Under the pieces are notes generated by a model. The model searched no databases and was not told the DNA's origin. It saw nothing but the letters and a program-made list of their open reading frames with translations. Shown in pieces: positions 40,556-55,309 of a stretch of 55,309 nucleotides of DNA. Source of the DNA: an uncultured Hyphomicrobiales bacterium. Its GTDB lineage: Bacteria > Pseudomonadota > Alphaproteobacteria > Rhizobiales > Devosiaceae. Numbering within the stretch: position 1 is the first letter of the stretch; every line of letters begins with the position of its first letter. A program made the translations under genes and the position numbers. The stretch is from NCBI GenBank assembly GCA_903828145.1, contig CAIKKY010000013.1:1-55309 (forward strand), written 5' to 3'.

Positions 40556-40632
40556 GGCGGAGTAGCTCAGTTGGTTAGAGCAGCGGAATCATAATCCGTG
40601 TGTCGGGGGTTCAAATCCCTCCTCCGCTACCA
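40556..40632 (+). tRNA. tRNA-Met (anticodon CAT)
   Basis: A full cloverleaf: acceptor GGCGGAG pairing with CTCCGCT, D-loop AGCTCAGTTGGTTAGAGC, anticodon stem GCGGA...TCCGT with CAT in the loop, TTCAAAT in the T-loop, and an encoded CCA at 40630-40632. It looks like the elongator Met tRNA; a CAT-bearing Ile2 tRNA is less likely. It is the integration site of the island; the 3' 47 bases plus CCA are duplicated at 52360-52412. Confidence 0.93.
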
Positions 40633-40635
40633 AAA
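40583..40635 (+). repeat. attL core repeat within tRNA-Met
   Basis: This 53-bp stretch runs from the anticodon stem through CCA and three further A residues and is identical to 52360-52412. It divides island from chromosome on the left and keeps the tRNA intact. Confidence 0.92.
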
Positions 40636-40711: not shown

Positions 40712-41914
40712 ATGTCACGACACTCGCCATATGACCTGCAAAGCGTCTCTGGTTATCCCGACTCGCTCCAGATTTATCGCATCCCTGCATCGTCGTTTTG
40801 GCAGGTGCGAATGTTCGTGGACCGCAAATATGTGCGTAAAAGCACTAAGACAGCGGACCGAAAGGAAGCACTGGCGTTTGCTAAGGCGTTCTATGATTCC
40901 ATTCGCATCAGTCAGCGGCTGGATATCAGCGTCCACACCGACACTTTCTTTGCGTGTGCTGAGCATCTCAGAAAGCGGCAGGAGATGCTGGTCGCAACAG
41001 GTCAGCGGGACAAACGCATCCTGAGCGAGGATGAACGCAAACTCAGGGCTGACATACTTCCGTTCTTTGGAACGAAAGGCGTGGCGGACATCACGGCTTC
41101 AACGCTGGATGAGTATGTCGCGTATCTGGCGAGTAAGAAGCAGATCAAGCCAACGACGATCTCAAAGCATCTGGTCGTGGTGCGGAAGGTGCTGGTGGAG
41201 GCTCAGCGGCGCAACTTCATCAAGGCGATACCACCGTTTCCGACCTTCAGGGTGAAGGACAATCCGCGTCCCTATTTCACGGAAGACGAGTACCGCAAAC
41301 TCAGGTCGGTAGCGAAACGGCTGGCTAAAGAGGGCGCTGTTGTTCGCGGCGTCCCGTTCACCGAAGAGATGTATGACTTCATCGTCTTTGCGATGAATGT
41401 GTTTGTGCGTCCAAGCGACCTGAAACTGCTGCGGCACAGGGACATTCAGGTCGTGACGGACAAGCGGGAGCGAGGCTCAGTGAGTTATCTGACCCTCATC
41501 CCGCAGAAGTCCAAGACAGTGGTGCGTGAAAGCATCTCTATGCCACGGGCTGCTGTCGCATATGAGCGCATCAGGCGTCGGGCAGAGGTAAAGGGCACAC
41601 TGAAGGCATCTGACTTCGTGTTCTTCGCGCAGTATCCCAATCGGTCCTATGCGCTACAGACCATACGGCGGCAGTTTGAGTTTCTGCTAGAACAGGCAGG
41701 GCTGCGCCAGGATCGTCTGGGGCGCAACAGAACGCTCTATTCGCTCAGACACTCAGCCCTGATGTACCGCTTTCTCCACGGCGACAATGTGGATATCTTC
41801 GTGCTGGCGAGGAACGCACTGACCAGCGTCGACCAGCTAGAGCGGTTTTATCTCTCGCATGCGGCTAGTCGGGACAAGATCGAGACGCTGCATTCGTTTG
41901 CAAGGCGGGGATAG
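40712..41914 (+). CDS. int: Tyrosine-type site-specific integrase
   Basis: A 400-residue phage-type integrase that would catalyse insertion and excision at the tRNA repeat. An N-terminal arm region and a SAM-like core-binding domain (about residues 70-175) precede the catalytic domain. Catalytic residues are visible in the first Arg box (NVFVRPSDLKLL), the HxxR box LRHSALMYR, and the Tyr of RFYLSHA near the C-terminus. The ATG at 40712 is preferred; the open frame upstream runs through the tRNA. Its last 204 bp are partly duplicated at 42720-42923. Confidence 0.92.
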   Translation: MSRHSPYDLQSVSGYPDSLQIYRIPASSFWQVRMFVDRKYVRKSTKTADRKEALAFAKAFYDSIRISQRLDISVHTDTFFACAEHLRKRQEMLVATGQRDKRILSEDERKLRADILPFFGTKGVADITASTLDEYVAYLASKKQIKPTTISKHLVVVRKVLVEAQRRNFIKAIPPFPTFRVKDNPRPYFTEDEYRKLRSVAKRLAKEGAVVRGVPFTEEMYDFIVFAMNVFVRPSDLKLLRHRDIQVVTDKRERGSVSYLTLIPQKSKTVVRESISMPRAAVAYERIRRRAEVKGTLKASDFVFFAQYPNRSYALQTIRRQFEFLLEQAGLRQDRLGRNRTLYSLRHSALMYRFLHGDNVDIFVLARNALTSVDQLERFYLSHAASRDKIETLHSFARRG

Positions 41915-42719: not shown

Positions 42720-42923
42720 CGGCAGTTTGAGTTTCTGCTAGAACAGGCAGGGCTGCGCCAGGATCGTCTGGGGCGCAACAGAACGCTTTATTCGCTCAGA
42801 CACTCAGCAATGATGTACCGTTTTCTCCACGGCGATAATGTGGGCACTTTCGTGTTGGCGCGAAACGCATTGACGAGCGTTGACCAGTTGGAGCGGTACT
42901 ATCTGTCCCATGCAGCCAGTTGG
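42720..42923 (+). pseudogene. C-terminal remnant of a second integrase
   Basis: This 204-bp stretch aligns without gaps to the integrase 3' end (41669-41872). It encodes the last active-site boxes (LRHSAMMYR and the Tyr in RYYLSHA) but has no N-terminal part or start. The first 68 bp are identical, while the rest differs mostly at third codon positions. That pattern indicates a relic of a once-functional related integrase plus recent exchange in the identical part, not a simple copy. Confidence 0.88.
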
Positions 42924-43367
42924 TTAATAATTGAACTCGCTCTCATTAAATGCTTTATCCAAATCTCGATGATTATTCTCCAAAATTAATGTGAGTCCAC
43001 ATACTCGAGCCATATCCTGATAAGCGCTCTTTATTCTTTCGCCCATTTGACTTGCAGATATTTTAGTGCAATTATAAGCATTTTGAGTTTTCTGCATGCT
43101 TTTTACTATATTTTTCAGCTCGTCATAGCTTGCCTGTTCTCTGGCAATGCATTCCCTGAACAGATCGCTTTGGTGCGAAGCTCTGTTCGGATTATAAGCG
43201 TTTTGATAGTCAACGTCATTGACCATATTCAAGCAGTACCTTTTTACATCTAGTTTGGGAATTACAGATATTTCTGCGCAAATTGCATTGGAAATAGGAA
43301 AAATCAATATCATTGCGGTAAAAAATACTGCATTTTTATAGCGAATTTGCGAATAGATACTTACCAT
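42924..43367 (-). CDS. AT-rich putative secreted protein
   Basis: A 147-residue protein with a signal peptide (residues 1-31, KNAVFFTAMILIFPISNAICA) and four Cys in the mature part, suggesting disulfides in the periplasm. The remainder is polar and helical. Base composition is far more AT-rich than the chromosome, so it is recently acquired. Its stop codon directly abuts the integrase remnant. No family is recognised. Confidence 0.65.
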   Translation of the reverse strand: MVSIYSQIRYKNAVFFTAMILIFPISNAICAEISVIPKLDVKRYCLNMVNDVDYQNAYNPNRASHQSDLFRECIAREQASYDELKNIVKSMQKTQNAYNCTKISASQMGERIKSAYQDMARVCGLTLILENNHRDLDKAFNESEFNY

Positions 43368-43630
43368 TCGAAAAGCCCCCTCTTTTCGTTAGCGCTTTGA
43401 GATGCGGCTGCGTCGTTTTGAGCTTTGAGAGTCCTGGAAGCGATTCCCCATCGAGCTGTGATTCACTAATATGGTGAACTCTTGAAGTTGCGATGGTGAT
43501 TAACGTCCGCCGAGCAGTGTGACTCGAAAAGCCGTTGAATCCAAGAGCTGCGAACTCGTTTGCTGGCAGGCGGACGATTGCATTTTTGCCGAAATCGTTT
43601 GACCTTTCTCCTGCTGAGACGGAGGCTGAC

Positions 43631-44185
43631 ATGACTGAGATAGGAGCAGAAATTTCGACGTCGAAAAAATCTGTAGCAGATTACACGTTAGAAATACGTG
43701 GTGCATGGCAACGTGCAGCGCAGAGCATCATCGAGGTGGGGCAGCTTCTGGTTTCGGCTGAGGCTGAACTGACACCCAATGAGTTCCGTTCACTTCGGCG
43801 TGGTCTGGAAGACGAAGGTGTCCTGTCGCAGTCGACCATCACGAAGCTGATGGGGATCGCGAGGAACAACGTCCTCGTCGATCCTGAACGGGTGCCGCTG
43901 CTGCCACCTTCATATGAGGCGCTCTACAATCTGAGCCGCTGGGATAGTGGCGAGTTACAGTCAGCGTTTTCAGAAGGGCGCATTCATCCCGAGTTGCAGG
44001 TCAAAGAATGTCGCCCACCGCTTTCGGCGGCGCCTGCGGCTGTGGCTGGAATAGCGCGGACGGTTCTGTTTCAGGTTGAAGCCACTGACACTCTGAAGCC
44101 AGCAACCCTGAAAAAACTCAAAGAGGTCGTGAGTTCCCTTTCTGAGTTGCAGGGCATCAAGGTCACGATAAAGACGGACTTCTGA
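43631..44185 (+). CDS. DUF3102-like protein
   Basis: A 184-residue protein. The segment YTLEIRGAWQRAAQSIIEVGQLLVSAEAEL, followed by a helical region ending STITKLMGIARN (residues about 20-75), resembles DUF3102, a family found on phages and plasmids with an HTH-like part. The rest, including VLFQVEATDTLKPATLKKL, is unassigned. The ATG at 43631 follows a GGAGG site. One base separates its stop from the next gene, so they form a unit. Confidence 0.65.
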   Translation: MTEIGAEISTSKKSVADYTLEIRGAWQRAAQSIIEVGQLLVSAEAELTPNEFRSLRRGLEDEGVLSQSTITKLMGIARNNVLVDPERVPLLPPSYEALYNLSRWDSGELQSAFSEGRIHPELQVKECRPPLSAAPAAVAGIARTVLFQVEATDTLKPATLKKLKEVVSSLSELQGIKVTIKTDF

Positions 44186-44186
44186 G

Positions 44187-44924
44187 ATGCGGCTGTCAAA
44201 GCGAAGTCTGGCAGTGCTTGGTCGCTTCAAGAGCCTCAACGACGAGTTGATCTTGTTGGCGCCAAGACGGTTCTTCGTCTTTGGTGAAGGCAAAGATGGC
44301 ATTCACCGTGGTCTGGTCGTGGAAGGGTCTTTGCCAGACCGCTTTGCAGATTCAGGTGTCTACAAGGTTGGCAGCGGCGAGCTTCAGCCCGTTCAGGCAA
44401 AGTACGATTTTAAGCGCAAGCTTCAGTTCTTCGACGATCTCTATGCCAATGCAGCCAGGATTGCTCAGTTCACGCTAGCGGCGGATACGCTGAAGGCGCT
44501 GATTGCTGCGACAAAAGACGCGAACGGCACACACGTCAGAATCTATCGACGTCACGGCGAAGCTATCAAGGCAAGAGCATTCGATGCTCGGAAGTACTTC
44601 GATGAGCTAATTGCCGAGCATAGCCCAGCCGAGAACATCGGTGAGCATGAGCTGGCAGGGCAAGCGGATCGAGACTTTTTTGTCTACCTGAAGTTGTCGA
44701 CACTGAAACGCATCCCTTTGCAGGGCTACTCAGTCACAGTGTTCGATAATGGTCTTCTCGAACTCGCAGGTACCGATATCGATGTAGTCTGCCATATGCG
44801 CGACCAACGGCTTGGGCAGGCTTTCGAGCAGCAGTTGGAGCAACTCAGAACGTTAGGTAGCGTTCTTTCGCTTGATCCCAGGAGAGCCCAAGAAGCCCGT
44901 CGTAAAATGAAGGCTCTTGGCTAA
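44187..44924 (+). CDS. Unknown protein resembling T4-type sliding clamps
   Basis: A 245-residue protein. The start MRLSKRSLAVLGRFKSLNDEL resembles the opening of phage T4 gp45 (MKLSKDTTALLKNFATIN). The C-terminal run FFVYLKLSTLKRIPLQGYSV through GLLELAGTDIDVVCHM parallels the last gp45 strands in spacing of hydrophobic, Pro, Gly and Tyr positions. The middle cannot be aligned by eye. If right, it would be a DNA-clamp-like ring protein without a nearby polymerase. Function is otherwise unknown. It starts one base after the DUF3102-like gene and its 3' end overlaps the opposite-strand gene by 80 bp. Confidence 0.6.
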   Translation: MRLSKRSLAVLGRFKSLNDELILLAPRRFFVFGEGKDGIHRGLVVEGSLPDRFADSGVYKVGSGELQPVQAKYDFKRKLQFFDDLYANAARIAQFTLAADTLKALIAATKDANGTHVRIYRRHGEAIKARAFDARKYFDELIAEHSPAENIGEHELAGQADRDFFVYLKLSTLKRIPLQGYSVTVFDNGLLELAGTDIDVVCHMRDQRLGQAFEQQLEQLRTLGSVLSLDPRRAQEARRKMKALG

Positions 44925-46113
44925 ACACGCCCTTTTCAGCGAGCCCTTTTACGCGCCAAGCCGCATATTTGTCGCGCCAAAGTTGAACAAGTGCCGCCTC
45001 GGAGTTGTCGAAAAGCGGTCGCAGTTTTTCGGCTGGTGTACGACCCTGAAGGAACTCGTAGGTGCGGTCATAGAGACGCGCAAAATAGATACCGCGGCTA
45101 TGCTGGGATCTGGTCTCGGCGCTTGTGAAACCCAGTTGTCGATAAACGTAGTTCATGGAGACCGTGGTGGCATTACGCGTGAGCGGGAGACCGTTGGGTC
45201 GCAACGCTTCATGCAAACGCCAATAGGCTTCGGGATGATGTGCCCTTAACCAGTCGCGCATAGCTTTCTGGGTCGCAGCAGCAGGCTTCAGTGGCGCTTG
45301 CCCAGGTGTAAAGCCGCATGCTTTCCAGTGCTTGAGGTCGTCATATTGGCTCTTGCCTTTGGTTTCGCCGTAAAGCGACGTGGTCGTGACGCCAACCAAC
45401 CGATAACCGTAAATCTCTTCCCACATATCGGCGACAGTCTTGGACAGGCACAAAAGGGCGAGCAGCTTGCCGCCGACATAGTTGAAGCCGAACGGCTGGG
45501 TGGGGACGATCACTGAGCCGATGGCGGTGTGGTTGATCATTCCCCGCTTGGTGCGAATCTCATTTGACCAGCCGATCAGCTTGTCACGCCCTGCCAGATC
45601 GAAAAAATCACTCGAGATGCAGATCACGCCTAGGTACTTCTTGGTCACACGGTCGCGCACCAGAAAACGCAGGGATCGACCAACGTTTCCGCCATGTGGC
45701 ATCGTTGAGACAAAGAGACGGAGTATCTCCCAGTCATGGGCTAACGGATCTGGGTTGGTGACGAACTCAAAACGCTCGTGCCCCCATATGCTGACTGAGG
45801 TTACAGGGAACTGGGTCTTGATGAAGACAAGTTCGGGCTCAAGCTTCAGGTAGTCATCCAACGCCGCGGGCTGCCAGATTTTGTCGGCGACACCAGAGAT
45901 GCGCTTGTGCTCTTTAGTCGAGATGTCAGCGAACTCGCAACGTAGTTCGTCCCATTTTTGCCAAAGCGTGTACTCTTTGACGGACATCTTGCGGGCAAGG
46001 TCGAGATCCTGCTTAACTCTTTGCCGCAAGTCAGCCGTGTCGGGCTTCTCGGTTTGCTGCTGCTGAGAAGCCCAAGCTTCGAATTGAGGGCGCAGTTCGT
46101 CTGGAATCTTCAT
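44845..46113 (-). CDS. DruA/DUF4338-like protein
   Basis: A 422-residue protein. Residues about 148-270 follow the DUF4338 pattern of the Druantia protein DruA and its transposon-linked relatives: LRFLVRD, GRDKLIGWSNEIR, a VP...N segment, WEEIYGYRLV, then LYGETKGKSQYDDLKHW and a closing Gly-Phe-Thr. The N-terminal 110 residues are helical and unique. DruA's biochemistry is unknown; Druantia defends against phage. Here no helicase DruE is next to it, so a standalone or different system is likely. Confidence 0.6.
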   Translation of the reverse strand: MKIPDELRPQFEAWASQQQQTEKPDTADLRQRVKQDLDLARKMSVKEYTLWQKWDELRCEFADISTKEHKRISGVADKIWQPAALDDYLKLEPELVFIKTQFPVTSVSIWGHERFEFVTNPDPLAHDWEILRLFVSTMPHGGNVGRSLRFLVRDRVTKKYLGVICISSDFFDLAGRDKLIGWSNEIRTKRGMINHTAIGSVIVPTQPFGFNYVGGKLLALLCLSKTVADMWEEIYGYRLVGVTTTSLYGETKGKSQYDDLKHWKACGFTPGQAPLKPAAATQKAMRDWLRAHHPEAYWRLHEALRPNGLPLTRNATTVSMNYVYRQLGFTSAETRSQHSRGIYFARLYDRTYEFLQGRTPAEKLRPLFDNSEAALVQLWRDKYAAWRVKGLAEKGVFSQEPSFYDGLLGLSWDQAKERYLTF

Positions 46114-46137
46114 TGGAAAGCTTCGTTCGGAGACTCG

Positions 46138-46497
46138 ATGGGAAAGCGCAATCCACCTTTGCTGGAATACACAGACGCCAATCTCGAGGCTGTGACAACT
46201 GCGATTCTGAAGAATTTGACCCCTGACCTGCTACCCAAGAAATGGCGTGAGACGAACAAGACCAATCCGCTCTATGGGCATTGTCATACGGCGTCAGGCT
46301 GTCTCTATCGGATCTTCGGGTCGGAGAATCTGTCGCTGTATCGCGCAGTGGACCCGTATGGTGTTTATCACTGGTGGTGCGTCGACCGCGCTGGGCGGGT
46401 CATTGATCTGACTGCGGGGCAGTACGAAGACGGAGTAGCAGAGGAACTTCATCGGCAGGGGATTCGGCAGCCTGGAATGCTAGGGTTTGACTATTAA
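46138..46497 (+). CDS. Small protein with papain/YunG-like fold signature
   Basis: A 119-residue protein. Cys49 in GHCHTASGCLYRIFG, His78 in VYHWWC and Asp90 in VIDLTAGQY are spaced like a papain-type Cys-His-Asp triad, as in YunG-like and phage families. A role as peptidase, deamidase or toxin is possible but unproven. The ATG at 46138 follows GGAG. It is divergent from the DruA-like gene with only 24 bp between start codons, so the two probably share a control region. Confidence 0.65.
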   Translation: MGKRNPPLLEYTDANLEAVTTAILKNLTPDLLPKKWRETNKTNPLYGHCHTASGCLYRIFGSENLSLYRAVDPYGVYHWWCVDRAGRVIDLTAGQYEDGVAEELHRQGIRQPGMLGFDY

Positions 46498-46596
46498 AAA
46501 CGATTGATGGAACTTGTTACGAGGTTGGGTTCGGTTCATTGGATAATGGCAGAAAAAACTTAAGTCGCAGCACAATCAACATCGGGCAGAAGAAAA

Positions 46597-47265
46597 ATGA
46601 ATGAATGTTTCGTCATTAATAATAACGATAAAGTTAAATTCACACATAGTGATCGAATATTCCACTATAAAATAAGCCATAAATATATACAAATAATACA
46701 TGTAGCGACAATTATGTTAAGTTCTATATTTATTAGCTTATTTCTGTGTAACATCGGATCTGCCGAAGAAGCAGTAAATATAACGTGTCAAACAGATAAA
46801 TTTTTTAATTTCATTGGCATTGAGGCGGGGATAGTAAAGTCGCCTGAAAATGTCGTCGCTTCCGCATCACTCGGCAGTAACGCGAAATGTACATTCAAAT
46901 TTTCAATTGACAAATGCGTATTTAACACCGTGGATAAATTAAATCAGTATACCAAAATTTTTAATGATAAAAATGTTTCGCAAGAATTGATCAATATTAA
47001 TGAAACATTATTCGCGTGGTCGACTACGAATATTTCATATAATGTCTCTGGAGAAAACATAGATAAAATTTATTCTTATAACCAGATTATTGGCTTGTCG
47101 CCAGAATTAAAAACAGAAAAAGACCGTCGAGCGTTACATGGAATTTTTGAATACTTTTCCTATCTATGTGATCTTGATTCGATCACAGAGGACGAATTGA
47201 CAGAAAAACTTGCAGGTGGATCCCTCTTATCATACGAATATTTTATTGTTAAAAATACGAGATAA
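46597..47265 (+). CDS. AT-rich putative exported protein
   Basis: A 222-residue protein with a hydrophobic segment IIHVATIMLSSIFISLFLCNIGSA (about residues 33-56) that may be a signal peptide or anchor; an ATG at 46714 would make it a plain signal peptide. The mature part contains Cys pairs (NITCQ, NAKCTF, DKCVF, YLCDL). Composition is extremely AT-rich, similar to the gene at 42924-43367, so both may share an origin. No family is recognised. Confidence 0.6.
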   Translation: MNECFVINNNDKVKFTHSDRIFHYKISHKYIQIIHVATIMLSSIFISLFLCNIGSAEEAVNITCQTDKFFNFIGIEAGIVKSPENVVASASLGSNAKCTFKFSIDKCVFNTVDKLNQYTKIFNDKNVSQELININETLFAWSTTNISYNVSGENIDKIYSYNQIIGLSPELKTEKDRRALHGIFEYFSYLCDLDSITEDELTEKLAGGSLLSYEYFIVKNTR

Positions 47266-47337
47266 AGAGAATTAGTTATAGTATACTATGACTTAGAGCC
47301 GCAATTGATACGAGTTAAGGCAGATTTAATATTATAA

Positions 47338-47553
47338 CTAAGTTCTGAGGAGATATGCAGGGTTTATATGCGTGATCAGATCCTCTGGCTCCAGCACGTC
47401 TGCGAACTCCCGCTTAAGTGCTTTCAAGCGCGCGTCATCGTCCAACGGCTCATCAAACTCAGCACCAGAGCGAATGAGGTCATCCAGAATCTCCAGCAGT
47501 TCAAGGCGGCGGCGGAGCAGGTTGGCTTCTTGGTCGTGTTTACGAATGATCAT
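47338..47553 (-). CDS. Small acidic protein, last gene of four-gene micro-operon
   Basis: A 71-residue acidic, helical protein with a coiled-coil-like N-terminal half (EANLLRRRLELLEILDDLI). No family is recognised. Its ATG overlaps the preceding gene's stop by four bases, making it the end of a tightly coupled set starting at 48156. Confidence 0.6.
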   Translation of the reverse strand: MIIRKHDQEANLLRRRLELLEILDDLIRSGAEFDEPLDDDARLKALKREFADVLEPEDLITHINPAYLLRT

Positions 47554-47807
47554 GGGGCAATCCGTTTCAGTATGGTCTTAGCCTGTTCGGTCAGGGCTGG
47601 TCGTTCTGTGAGATAGGCGAGGGTCAGTACAGCAATGGCTGCGCTGCTGAGTGTCATCTGGCTGACAATGTCTTGGCGTTCTTGAGTGTCAGTGCTGGTC
47701 ATCAGACTGGTCTGAAGGCTGACAAGGCGACTGACAGCGAACTCAGCGAGCGGCACGAGTTGGTTCAGTCGCTCATTCTCAAAGTCAGGCAGCAAAAAGT
47801 CATTCAT
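47550..47807 (-). CDS. Small helical protein, third gene of micro-operon
   Basis: An 85-residue protein beginning MNDFLLPDFENE, with helices including LSSAAIAVLTLAYLTERPAL that is amphipathic rather than a clear membrane span. The ATG at 47807 overlaps the upstream TGA (TGATG); a GTG one codon earlier is possible. No family is recognised. Confidence 0.6.
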   Translation of the reverse strand: MNDFLLPDFENERLNQLVPLAEFAVSRLVSLQTSLMTSTDTQERQDIVSQMTLSSAAIAVLTLAYLTERPALTEQAKTILKRIAP

Positions 47808-47980
47808 CACGGCTTGAGCACGATGATGGTCACAGGCTGACGGCGCTGGAGAGTGCGCTTAGCCTCGCGGAATGCTTCATCCAGCTGCTGCTTCTGGATG
47901 GTGTCTTTGTGGTCAGGGTTGATGCTGAAGACCTGGCTGGTGCTGGTCGCTATCAGTTTGCGGATCTCTGCATCATTCAT
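47807..47980 (-). CDS. Tiny basic protein, second gene of micro-operon
   Basis: A 57-residue frame, MNDAEIRKLIATSTSQVF..., ending RRQPVTIIVLKP. It starts with an ATGA overlap on the ribbon-helix-helix gene and ends overlapping the next start. The overlaps on both sides support it despite its size. No family is recognised. Confidence 0.6.
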   Translation of the reverse strand: MNDAEIRKLIATSTSQVFSINPDHKDTIQKQQLDEAFREAKRTLQRRQPVTIIVLKP

Positions 47981-48156
47981 CTCAGACGCTCATAAGCATT
48001 GAGATTGCGCTTCACCGCTTGGCGGATGAAGGCTGACACGCTGAGTTGGTTCTCGGCGGCAACAGAGCGAGCCTCGGTGAGCAGGTCAGTGCTGCACTTG
48101 AACAGGAACACGCTGTCGTTTCGTGCCGGGCGCATTCGGGTCGGTGACTGGGTCAT
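47977..48156 (-). CDS. Ribbon-helix-helix (CopG-like) DNA-binding protein
   Basis: A 59-residue protein. The segment NDSVFLFKCSTDLLTEARSVAAENQLSVSAFIRQAVKRNL fits a short beta strand and two helices ending in the SxSAFIRxAV pattern of MetJ/Arc/CopG repressors. It heads the four-gene micro-operon and would be its autoregulator, as in small mobile-element or toxin-antitoxin operons. Confidence 0.7.
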   Translation of the reverse strand: MTQSPTRMRPARNDSVFLFKCSTDLLTEARSVAAENQLSVSAFIRQAVKRNLNAYERLR

Positions 48157-50135: not shown

Positions 50136-50343
50136 TTTGGGCTCCTTTGTCCATCGGCATTTTTGTGATGCTCAGCCACGCCGCTGGCTTCTGCAAGACC
50201 CCACCGTCTCTCTGGTGTGTAAGTCAAACGCAGATGGCGCTGACACAGCGATCATTGGGTTTTTTGCGTCTCAAATGGGTGGTTGACCGCTTTAGGAGAC
50301 ACACTACCTGGCAGGTCTAGAACTCACTGAGACAGGAGTGGCT

Positions 50344-50877
50344 ATGGCGAAGGTCGGGTATCGGCGGGTCAGCACGACAGAGCAGAACTTTGACAGGCAG
50401 GCTCTGGACGGGTGCGACAAGGTCTTTGAGGAGAAGGCTTCTGGCGCAACTCGGGAACGAGCAGCACTCAATGACTTGATTGCATGGGTGCGGGACGGTG
50501 ATGAGGTCGTGGTCTGGAGCATTGATCGGCTGGCGCGTGACCTGCGGGACTTGCAGGAAGTGGTGTCAACGCTGACGGCTAAAGGAGCATCAGTGACATT
50601 CGTCTCGGAGCGGCTAAGTTTTTCAGGCTCGCAGGATGATGCGCTGTCTCGGCTGCAACTTCAGATGATGGGGGCGTTTGCAGAGTTTGAGCGCAACATC
50701 ATTCGGCGGCGTCAGGCGGAAGGCATCGCCAAAGCCAAGGAGCGGGGCGTCTACAAGGGTCGGAAAGCGAAGGTGGATGCAGCGGCTATTCGGCAGTTGC
50801 GGTCAGATGGGCTGGGGGCAACAGCGATTGCGGATATGCTCGGGATTGCGCGGGCTACGGTGTATCGGGTGGGGTAG
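50344..50877 (+). CDS. Serine recombinase (resolvase/invertase family)
   Basis: A 177-residue small serine recombinase. The catalytic Ser is in GYRRVSTTEQNFDRQ near residue 12. The Arg cluster lies in WSIDRLARDLRDL near 66, and the dimer helix FAEFERNIIRRRQAEGIAKAKERG follows. A C-terminal HTH (GATAIADMLGIARATVYR) binds DNA. The ATG at 50344 follows an AGGAG site; a GTG two codons earlier is possible. It could resolve cointegrates or invert a segment; no obvious crossover repeats were found beside it. Confidence 0.92.
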   Translation: MAKVGYRRVSTTEQNFDRQALDGCDKVFEEKASGATRERAALNDLIAWVRDGDEVVVWSIDRLARDLRDLQEVVSTLTAKGASVTFVSERLSFSGSQDDALSRLQLQMMGAFAEFERNIIRRRQAEGIAKAKERGVYKGRKAKVDAAAIRQLRSDGLGATAIADMLGIARATVYRVG

Positions 50878-52359: not shown

Positions 52360-52412
52360 GCGGAATCATAATCCGTGTGTCGGGGGTTCAAATCCCTCCT
52401 CCGCTACCAAAA
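52360..52412 (+). repeat. attR core repeat (3' tRNA-Met fragment)
   Basis: A perfect 53-bp copy of 40583-40635, lacking the tRNA 5' half. It marks the right border of the island. Chromosome-like GC content resumes right after it. Confidence 0.92.
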
Positions 52413-52554: not shown

Positions 52555-54792
52555 GTGCTGACGAGACGTGAGATCGAGGCCCGGGCGGCGTCCTTTGCCG
52601 TGGAGTGGAAAGACGCCAAAGACGAGCGCGCCGAAAGCCAGAGCTTCTGGGATGCGCTGTTTCGCGTTTACGGCACGCCCCGGCGTAATGTGGCGCGCTT
52701 CGAGCGTAAGGTCCGGCGGCCTGATGGCACCCTGGGCAAGATTGACCTGTTCTGGAAAAAGAAGCTCCTCGTGGAGCATAAATCGCGCGGGCTTTCGCTC
52801 ATCGAGGCGCGGGCGCAGGCGCAGGAATATATCCTCGGCCTCGCCCCGGCGGATCGACCGAAGTGGCTGGTGGTCAGCGATTTCCAGCGCTTTGAGGTTA
52901 TTGATCAGGAAACCGGCGAGGAACAGCGTTTCGAGCTGCCGCAATTGCCGGCGCGGCTCGATGCGCTCGGCTTTATTGGCGGCTTCCAGCCGCGCAAGCC
53001 TTCGCTGTCGGCACCGGTCAACATCAAGGCTGTCGAACTGCTGGGCGAGGTGTTCGATACCTTGCGGCTCGGCGGCTACCCGGCCGACGCGCTGCCCGGT
53101 TTTCTGGTGCGGCTGGTCTTTGCGCTGTTTGCCGAAGACACCGCGATTTTCGAGCCGGAGCAGTTCCGCAGCCTGATCCTCGAGAATTCCGTGCCGGATG
53201 GCAGCGACCTTGGCCGCTTGCTCGATGATTTCTTTCAGGTGCTGAACACCCCGCCTGACGCGCGCCAGCACAATTTGGCTCCCGAACTGCGTGCCTTTCC
53301 CTATGTGAACGGGGCCCTGTTCGATCTCCGGCTCCCCAATGCCGCCATGACGCGGGTGATGCGCGATGTGCTGCTGCGCGCCACCGAATTTGACTGGACG
53401 CAGATTTCGCCCGCCATTTTCGGCTCGCTGTTCCAATCAGTGATGGAGGGGGCAGAGCGCCGGGCGCTTGGGGCGGACTACACATCGGAAGACGACATTC
53501 TCAAGCTGATCCGCCCCCTGTTCCTCGAAGAGCTTGAGGCGGAGCTGGAGGGCATTCTCCGCGACCTGAGCACTGCGCGCAACGGCAGGCTGGATCGGTT
53601 TCACGATAAGCTGGCGGGCCTCAGGGTTCTCGATCCGGCCTGTGGCTGCGGCAATTTTCTCATCATTGCCTATCGCGAATTGCGGCGGCTTGAGACGCGG
53701 CTGCTGATCGAGCGCTATCGCGGCAATCTCTCTGGCTTTCTGGATGTGGGGTTATTTGCGCGGCTCAATGTCGATGCGTTTTTTGGCATCGAGATTGAAG
53801 AGTTTCCCGCCGAAATCGCGCGCGTTGGCCTGTGGCTCATGGACCATATCTGCAACCGCGAACTGGCCGCGGCCTTTGGTGAAAGTTTTGTGCGGCTGCC
53901 GCTGAAGAAATCCGCCACCATCCGCTGCGCCAACGCGCTGGCGACAGATTGGGCCGATGTACTGCCACCGGACCAATGCAGTTATGTCATTGGCAACCCG
54001 CCCTTTGTGGGGGCGAAGTTCATGACACCAACCCAGCGCGACGAGTTGCAGCGCGTGGCCCATGGTGTGCGCAACAGCGGGCTCCTGGACTACGTGACCG
54101 CGTGGTATTTCAAGGCTGCCGACTATATCGCGCGCTCGCCCATCCGCTGCGCCTTCGTATCCACCAATTCCATCACGCAGGGCGAACAGGTGGGCGTGCT
54201 CTGGCCGCCGCTTCTGGGGCGCGGGATCAGAATTCAGTTCGCGCATCGCACCTTCGCCTGGCGCAGCGAGGCGCGCGGCGCGGCGCATGTGCATGTGGTC
54301 ATCATCGGTTTTGGCCATGGCGATGTGCCGGTGAAGCGGATTTTCGACCATACTGACTTGGCCAATACGCGCGAAATCCGGGCGGGGAATATCTCGCCCT
54401 ATCTTCTCGACAGCCCGAACACTGTGGCGGTCAACCGCTCCACGCCGATCTGCGACGTGCCCGAAATGGGCATTGGCAACAAGCCAATTGACGGGGGGCA
54501 TTACATTTTCACCGAGGCGGAGAGAATTGAGTTTCTGGTCCGGGAACCGGGGGCCGCGCCCTATCTGCGCCGCTTCATCGGGGCCGAGGAATTTCTCAAC
54601 GGCAATGACCGCTGGATATTGGTGCTCAAAGACGTGCCGCCCTCAGTGATCCGGGCCATGCCGCAGGTCTATGCCCGGGTGGAGGCCGTGCGGGCGTTCC
54701 GGAAGGCGAGCAAGAGCCCCCCGACCCAAGCGCTGGGGGATACCCCAACCGGGAGTGTCGGGATTTCCGTGTTTGGCAGGCATAATGGGTAA
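52555..54792 (+). CDS. MmeI-like type IIL restriction-modification enzyme, truncated by IS
   Basis: A single-chain nuclease-methyltransferase, broken at its 3' end. The N-terminal PD-(D/E)XK nuclease shows Asp64, then Glu74 and Lys76 (D-x9-ExK, the spacing of MmeI). The methyltransferase has motif I DPACGCGNF near residue 360 and the adenine-N6 motif IV NPPF near 481. Similarity ends after ASKSPPTQALGDTPT (about 732), where the IS256 inverted repeat begins; the last 13 residues are IS sequence. MmeI-type proteins exceed 900 residues, so the target-recognition domain is lost. The GTG start follows GGGGAG. Confidence 0.85.
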   Translation: MLTRREIEARAASFAVEWKDAKDERAESQSFWDALFRVYGTPRRNVARFERKVRRPDGTLGKIDLFWKKKLLVEHKSRGLSLIEARAQAQEYILGLAPADRPKWLVVSDFQRFEVIDQETGEEQRFELPQLPARLDALGFIGGFQPRKPSLSAPVNIKAVELLGEVFDTLRLGGYPADALPGFLVRLVFALFAEDTAIFEPEQFRSLILENSVPDGSDLGRLLDDFFQVLNTPPDARQHNLAPELRAFPYVNGALFDLRLPNAAMTRVMRDVLLRATEFDWTQISPAIFGSLFQSVMEGAERRALGADYTSEDDILKLIRPLFLEELEAELEGILRDLSTARNGRLDRFHDKLAGLRVLDPACGCGNFLIIAYRELRRLETRLLIERYRGNLSGFLDVGLFARLNVDAFFGIEIEEFPAEIARVGLWLMDHICNRELAAAFGESFVRLPLKKSATIRCANALATDWADVLPPDQCSYVIGNPPFVGAKFMTPTQRDELQRVAHGVRNSGLLDYVTAWYFKAADYIARSPIRCAFVSTNSITQGEQVGVLWPPLLGRGIRIQFAHRTFAWRSEARGAAHVHVVIIGFGHGDVPVKRIFDHTDLANTREIRAGNISPYLLDSPNTVAVNRSTPICDVPEMGIGNKPIDGGHYIFTEAERIEFLVREPGAAPYLRRFIGAEEFLNGNDRWILVLKDVPPSVIRAMPQVYARVEAVRAFRKASKSPPTQALGDTPTGSVGISVFGRHNG

Positions 54793-55309
54793 ACAAGGAG
54801 CCCGATATGTCTCGACGCAAAGAGCCTTCGATCCCGAATGAACTTCTCGATCAACTCCTGGCTGGCGGCGCTGCCAGTGCGGCCTTTGAACAAGGCGGCC
54901 TGCTCGACGCGCTGAAAAAGGCGCTGACCGAGCGGGCCTTGAACGCGGAGATGGACCACCATCTTTCCGGTGACGATGGGGTCGGCAACACGCGCAACGG
55001 CTATGGCCGCAAGACGGTGACGACCGAGACGGGCACGCTCGAGATTGAGGTGCCACGCGATCGGCAGTCGAGCTTTGACCCGCAACTGATTGCCAAGTAT
55101 CAGCGCCGCTTTCCGGGCTTCGACGACAAGATTGTGTCGATGTATGCCCGCGGCATGAGCACCCGGGAGATCGCCGGGCATCTGCGCGACCTGTACGGCC
55201 TCGAAGTCTCGGCGGACCTGATCAGCACCGTGACGGACGCGGTCCTCGATGAAGTTGCCACCTGGCAGCAGCGGCCGCTGGACCCGGTCTATCCCTTGGT
55301 CTTCTTTGA
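54751..55309 (+). mobile_element. IS256-family insertion sequence (left part)
   Basis: Begins GGGAGTGTCGGGATTTCCGT, a typical IS256-family terminal repeat, inserted into the methyltransferase gene. The transposase starts 56 bp inside. The right end and the target duplication are beyond the window. Confidence 0.85.
54807..55309 (+). CDS. IS256-family transposase, 3' end beyond window
   Basis: The first 167 residues of an IS256/MULE-type transposase. The segment MSRRKEPSIPNELLDQLLAG, then NTRNGYGRKTVTTETGTLEIEVPRDR and MYARGMSTREIAGHL, is characteristic. The visible end PVYPLVFF stops two bases into the codon of the first catalytic Asp of the DDE triad. An AAGGAG site precedes the ATG. The frame is open at the window edge. 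Confidence 0.93.
   Translation, partial: MSRRKEPSIPNELLDQLLAGGAASAAFEQGGLLDALKKALTERALNAEMDHHLSGDDGVGNTRNGYGRKTVTTETGTLEIEVPRDRQSSFDPQLIAKYQRRFPGFDDKIVSMYARGMSTREIAGHLRDLYGLEVSADLISTVTDAVLDEVATWQQRPLDPVYPLVFF

Follow-up and report, generated by a model that had tools for sequence, protein, structure and literature searches.

In a 55,309-nucleotide stretch of DNA from an uncultured Hyphomicrobiales bacterium (hereafter, the window), two divergent genes encode a phage-type DruA (DUF4338) protein, P0001, and a protein of the YunG family, P0002. As the two are often found together in T4-like phages and the adjacent gene encodes a probable sliding clamp, P0004, of the gp45 type, we tentatively read the pair as captured T4-like-phage machinery for replication-linked DNA modification rather than as standard defence, a reading that we hold with somewhat less than even confidence. 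Along with a fourth gene, P0003, they lie between two copies of a tRNA-derived repeat, in the following order:

40556–40632, plus strand: tRNA-Met (cat), the integration target, found with ARAGORN.
40583–40635, plus strand: left copy of the att repeat (53 bp, perfect), the 3' part of the tRNA-Met gene.
40712–41914, plus strand: tyrosine-type integrase (PHROG integrase, 1e-27; Pfam SAM-like domain, 9.5e-5).
42720–42923, plus strand: duplicate of the integrase 3' end (204 bp, 88% identical to 41669–41872).
43631–44185, plus strand: P0003, 184 aa, ending 1 bp before P0004.
44187–44924, plus strand: P0004, 245 aa, probable T4 gp45-type sliding clamp (PHROG, hhalign, gp45 profile).
44845–46113, minus strand: P0001, 422 aa, phage-type DruA (DUF4338) with a GNAT-like predicted fold (Pfam, PHROG, alignment, model).
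46114–46137: gap of 24 bp between the divergent starts of P0001 and P0002.
46138–46497, plus strand: P0002, 119 aa, YunG family (Pfam), with Cys49, His78 and Asp90 and a C-terminus shorter than in phage relatives.
46498–46530, plus strand: in-frame stretch past the P0002 stop, still homologous to phage YunG (profile match over 46150–46530, with one stop inside).
47338–48156, minus strand: four small overlapping ORFs, the first of which (47977–48156) weakly matches a ribbon-helix-helix repressor.
50338–50877, plus strand: serine resolvase/invertase (Pfam Resolvase, 1.7e-33).
52360–52412, plus strand: right copy of the att repeat (53 bp, perfect), at a start-to-start spacing of 11,777 bp.

An integrase gene, together with directly repeated copies of the tRNA 3' end at the two boundaries, marks a tRNA-targeting integrative element, and thus the P0001–P0004 block is cargo of such an element, of 11.8 kb, across which the GC content ranges from 0.45 to 0.58, versus 0.60 to 0.69 in the flank. 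For the integrase, whose ORF is listed from 40598, an internal ATG was taken as the start (the piece scanned was 40715–41911), and the duplicate of its tail is perhaps the scar of an older insertion or a trace of two successive insertions at tRNA-Met. No packaging, capsid or primase genes were recognised with Pfam and PHROG among the element proteins scanned. Just beyond the element, at 52555–55307, an MmeI-like type IIG restriction-modification gene was observed, whose match breaks off in the target-recognition domain; a Mutator-family transposase follows directly and takes up the end of the contig.

Both ORFs of the pair were found where a preliminary description of this DNA had placed them, with their start codons separated by 24 bp. 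The shared control region that it had proposed for this gap gained no support: a scan of 43300–47400 gave no promoter-like (sigma-70-like) site within it, and 24 bp are too short for two complete divergent promoters.

The assignment of the 422-residue protein to DUF4338/DruA, also proposed there, was confirmed by its match to the Pfam DruA profile PF14236 (E 3.8e-19), which scored 69.4 bits against a curated cut-off of 27, and P0001 also matched the DruA profile of PADLOC (E 8.2e-17) and PHROG 19197 (E 2.4e-29), while none of P0001 to P0004 had an NCBIfam match over the cut-off. Once aligned, P0001 showed 42–47% identity to 18 Pelagibacter-type rows, 22–25% to six cyanophage-type rows and 21–22% to three classic DruA proteins, and in one alignment the GGKL and T-x-S-x-x-G positions were invariant in phage and classic members (alignment A2 uses 27 of the 31 DruA rows of a set without incomplete and identical proteins; the 27 phage rows of alignment A3 were picked by hand, one of them, L092, being partial).

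The structure model of P0001 (pLDDT 85.6, pTM 0.83) has a GNAT-like predicted fold, in line with the GNAT fold assigned to DUF4338 in the part of the source available (PMC10853773): the 50 PDB matches listed by Foldseek were mostly GNAT acyltransferases, at modest E values of 0.012 and weaker, with none as good as 0.001. At the sequence level, P0001 and its alignment gave chance-level rows against PDB sequences (E of 0.69 or more). Among viral models, proteins from one uncultured phage and from three giant viruses matched with E below 1e-8, the latter being Faunusvirus, Yasminevirus and Dasosvirus (BFVD; E 9e-18 to 4e-9).

The Mom family carries out the acyl modification of adenine in DNA. A further match to the model of P0001 was a Mom protein, that of Salmonella phage FSL SP-031 (E 3.1e-3 and probability 1.00; TM-score normalised to the query length, 0.31), and Mom is described as a GNAT base modifier in the available part of PMC7824862. 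Comparison of DruA and Mom profiles gave no significant match, either with seven Mom proteins or with Mu Mom alone, and one of 60 column shuffles outscored the real pair, so a similar way of working is put forward as a hypothesis and not as membership of the Mom family.

Full-length relatives of P0001 were T4-like phage proteins with 37–47% identity, including those of Pelagibacter T4-like phages (43% and 37% over 96–97% of the length) and those on six viral contigs (40–45%). DruA relatives were present in 31 annotated phage records and in at least 592 viral stretches, and YunG relatives in 39 and 148, respectively. For the analysis of neighbourhoods, the best 80 of the at least 592 confirmed DruA relatives and the best 80 of the 148 YunG loci were used, so that neither set was sampled at random, and the counts of DruA neighbourhoods and YunG–DruA pairs include near-identical contigs.

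In four annotated cyanophages, DruA lay between the clamp-loader genes gp44 and gp62 (names that are our own), with at most three small genes intervening, and in two Pelagibacter phages it followed recombination endonuclease genes, the clamp gene lying 6 to 7 kb further on. A replication gene (for the clamp, gp44, gp62 or the polymerase) was found within the contig sequence covered at 66 of the 80 viral DruA loci recovered with a cyanophage-type alignment as query; the other 14 include short contigs, and seven had UvsW instead. Within these 80 loci, gp44 was found up to 400 bp upstream of DruA in 14, gp62 downstream in 20 and the polymerase upstream in 14. The DruA gene of T4-like phages is located mostly within the replication gene cluster. 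In one viral contig (L112:1565–3997), DruA genes of the two phage types stood in tandem upstream of a clamp gene. In Synechococcus phage S-T4, an S-adenosylmethionine decarboxylase is annotated between clamp and clamp loader (L011:5198–5545), near DruA, and may hint at a polyamine link to base modification.

DruA-like proteins recognised through structural similarity in six Synechococcus phages have already been published (Phold paper, PMC12774648), with no mention of the replication cluster, YunG or a fixed C-terminus in the available part of that article; in the portions of the literature accessible to our search, nothing was found that connects phage replication genes with DUF4338 or YunG.

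The partner protein, P0002, matched the Pfam family YunG (PF24585; E 2e-6, 28.4 bits, curated cut-off 27) and PHROG 12251 (E 3.6e-10). Cys49, His78 and Asp90, in the order found in papain/transglutaminase-like enzymes, were invariant in the 28 proteins of one alignment. In its AF2 model (pLDDT 86.9; means of the five models from 86.9 to 66.6), a helix is predicted to begin at Cys49 and a strand to carry His78, an order of elements that would suit a papain-like fold. No sequence match was found in the PDB, and no fold match below E 1 was obtained with Foldseek, a negative that still leaves room for such a fold; papain-like and transglutaminase-like are thus used here as readings of the motif and not of the fold. 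Of the earlier label of papain-like gene, the conserved Cys-His-Asp set was confirmed and the fold was not.

YunG recurs as a companion of DruA in phages. DruA was present at 36 of the best 80 of 148 YunG loci, and this fraction rose to 28 of 29 where at least 5 kb were available downstream, and to 25 of 25 with at least 5.5 kb. The DruA match started 3.5–5.2 kb downstream of YunG at 34 of the 36 paired loci, a uniformity that could reflect a single phage lineage, some of the contigs being near-identical. Abutting or overlapping pairs were also found, with DruA followed by YunG in L092, L113, L117 and L120 and with YunG followed by DruA in L097 (start codons checked for L092 and L097), and in Synechococcus phage S-T4 the two genes were far apart. 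Most phage DruA loci lack YunG, which was present at 6 of the 80 cyanophage-type loci and at none of the eight loci L002–L009, within the contig sequence covered. Pelagibacter phage Mosig has DruA with no match to YunG, and Synechococcus phages S-PRM1 and S-CAM9 have both. In another group, Caulobacter phage CcrBL10 carries YunG after the DNA polymerase gene, with methyltransferase genes nearby, among them one for a DNA-cytosine methyltransferase ahead of it, and the Caulobacter phages with YunG gave no DruA match in the search of annotated phages.

The ends of the phage DruA proteins are under constraint. All 106 distinct proteins with a complete end finished in -IIR (83) or -VGR (23), in a set (L002–L013, L026–L105 and L112–L191) that leaves aside the four classic DruA loci, the two of the window, ORFs cut by contig ends and identical proteins. 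Their terminal arginine was encoded by all six codons and followed by all three stops, and 67 of the 106 had no overlapping ATGA start; thus, the constraint acts on the protein. P0001 lacks this terminus and ends about three residues short, and P0002 stops before the homology ends. For the residues that are invariant among relatives, proteins at least 80% identical to one already kept were dropped (from 23 to 11 for DruA and from 55 to 25 for YunG). P0001 keeps 80 of the 93 residues invariant in the 11 phage DruA proteins, while the most divergent of them, L002, keeps 93 of 106; P0002 keeps 14 of 17, whereas each of the 25 other YunG proteins keeps all or all but one. Judged by these sequences, the core of P0001 looks constrained, while its end, the end of P0002 and P0002 itself look changed or decaying.

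The altered ends may mean that the copies in the window are decaying. This would fit a single capture of phage DNA whose genes are slowly lost as passengers, with no use to the element, and the fact that the arrangement of four genes was seen once, along with the residues lost and the early stop in P0002, agrees with this possibility. Nevertheless, neither frame is interrupted where the catalytic regions are likely to lie, and GGKL as well as the conserved Cys-His-Asp set is retained. We regard passengers as an unlikely explanation.

Regarding the neighbours, P0003 and P0004 are likely one operon, given their 1-bp spacing. No Pfam family was found for P0003 even at E up to 10, which leaves the former DUF3102-like label of 43631–44185 unsupported; its weak relatives occurred in three other genomes of 289, with no DruA, YunG or clamp in their neighbourhoods (L194–L197). 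The 3' end of P0004, which seemingly has an extra tail, overlaps that of P0001 in antisense by 80 bp. P0004 matched the PHROG DNA polymerase processivity factor over residues 93–202 (E 1.8e-5) and a clamp in hhalign over residues 1 to 186 (E 0.022), and had the top score, 10.5 bits, against a gp45 profile of 28 clamps (E 0.043), whereas the best of 2000 shuffles reached 6.4. It is probably a T4 gp45-type clamp, on a weak match from one sequence; the clamp-like label given earlier to 44187–44924 accordingly stands with moderate support, backed by PHROG and less so by the gp45 profile and hhalign. P0004 gave no result against annotated phages or PDB sequences, and neither P0003 nor P0004 gave any in viral contig scans.

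Relatives of P0001 in the bacterial genomes searched were few and partial. They were detected in 7 of 385 genomes of the class, the six besides its own being partial (28–44% identity), and in 4 of 398 of the phylum, again with the three besides its own partial; a match over most of the protein was limited, in both sets, to its own genome. Scans of bacterial contigs found no relative, whether the query was the DruA alignment (two patterns) or P0001 (six patterns of short peptides), these being weak negatives, and among plasmids a partial DruA (28%) appeared in 2 of 72,556 records. P0004 was found in its own genome only (1 of 297 of the order), as was the phage-type YunG (1 of 270 of the class), while the broader Pfam YunG family was found in 5 of 289 genomes by a search that missed P0002 itself.

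These distributions bear on the proposal, made in the preliminary description, that the four genes at 43631–46497 form an undescribed bacterial anti-phage module. DruA belongs to a known defence system, the element is flanked by a restriction-modification gene, and PADLOC matches P0004 very weakly to PbeC (E 0.0057), all of which would suit such a module. The four genes, each searched separately, were nevertheless not found together in other bacterial genomes, and the pair has its relatives in phages, mostly within the replication cluster. In addition, PADLOC had no match for the nine element proteins among ten further proteins compared, a set that leaves aside the integrase, the resolvase and some small ORFs. 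The module thus finds no support, and we consider it very unlikely; of the conserved neighbourhood that had been expected for it, only the DruA–YunG part recurs, and it does so in T4-like phages.

Returning to capture from T4-like phages as the preferred reading, a mechanism can be outlined. In these phages, DruA, whose gene mostly neighbours those of clamp, clamp loader and polymerase, would be an enzyme of GNAT fold, with YunG as an optional partner. Recruited to the replisome, DruA could acyl-modify a base of newly replicated DNA in the manner of Mom, and a transglutaminase-like YunG would perform or trim an amide step. The 11.8-kb element at tRNA-Met would then have acquired the pair, beside a gp45-type clamp, and the trio would most likely be active upon infection by a related T4-like phage, when either the DNA of the element would be marked or the phage replisome disturbed.

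A rival explanation is that the altered copies of clamp, DruA and YunG act as decoys that block a related T4-like phage in defence of the host. The core of P0001 is kept, yet its -IIR/-VGR terminus is missing and YunG is shortened, and the probable phage-type clamp adjoins the pair; small satellites that protect their hosts from other phages are also reported in the available part of PMC10803314. But decay explains the altered ends equally well, no T4-like phage has been identified for this host, and the block was not seen in the other genomes searched. Decoys seem to us unlikely, slightly more so than passengers.

Beyond the captured genes, the more informative result lies outside the window, in the recurring DruA–YunG pair of T4-like phages and in the location of DruA mostly within their replication cluster, which, together with the recurring partner, points to replicating DNA as the substrate, a question testable in cultured phages. 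In its broadest form, marine T4-like phages would carry out an unrecognised replication-coupled DNA hypermodification by a DruA GNAT enzyme, encoded within the clamp and clamp-loader cluster and bearing the free C-terminal arginine found in all 106 proteins, and, in some lineages, by a transglutaminase-like YunG, the DruA of Druantia would be a relative of this enzyme, and the element would have captured the pair and a clamp against T4-like phages; taken as a whole, we see this as possible but doubtful. It also follows that a DruA match alone does not make a defence gene, as here it corresponds to a phage-type gene on a mobile element.

Compared with known systems, the first reference is Druantia, a defence system of which DruA is a component, together with the large helicase DruE, a protein much larger than 438 aa, and other partners. 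Membership of Druantia was rejected, as the longest ORF listed within the element has 438 aa and no gene of DruE size is present, which agrees with the preliminary description, where the remaining Druantia genes were noted as missing. P0001 shares with the classic DruA the PF14236 domain and the GGKL and T-x-S-x-x-G positions, but differs in its low identity, in lacking Druantia genes around it and in having relatives in a phage-type neighbourhood. Our literature search, in the portions accessible, found no statement on the biochemical role of DruA in Druantia.

Phage satellites are mobilised by a helper phage and often carry genes for packaging or for redirecting capsids. The element resembles those of virulent phages (PICMI, PLE) in being small (about 10 kb), integrative and provided with an integrase, and differs from them in that it has no known helper phage. 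As for Mom, that of phage Mu has a GNAT-like fold, as predicted for P0001, and one Mom appears among the structural matches of P0001; P0001 is, in contrast, a longer protein with no significant profile match to it. In phage FSL SP-031, the gene for Mom adjoins a DNA polymerase gene, a setting comparable to that of phage DruA.

The phage-type DruA proteins of Pelagibacter and Synechococcus T4-like phages (PHROG 19197) differ from P0001 in their setting and ending, since P0001 is encoded in a bacterial integrative element with no adjacent polymerase or clamp-loader genes and lacks the -IIR/-VGR terminus, and resemble it in a similarity that extends over the full length. Finally, P0002 shares with the YunG family (PF24585), of which B. 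subtilis has one member, the profile match and the conserved Cys-His-Asp residues, and within this family it is nearest to the phage branch, with 50–59% identity to the best 80 of 148 viral loci.
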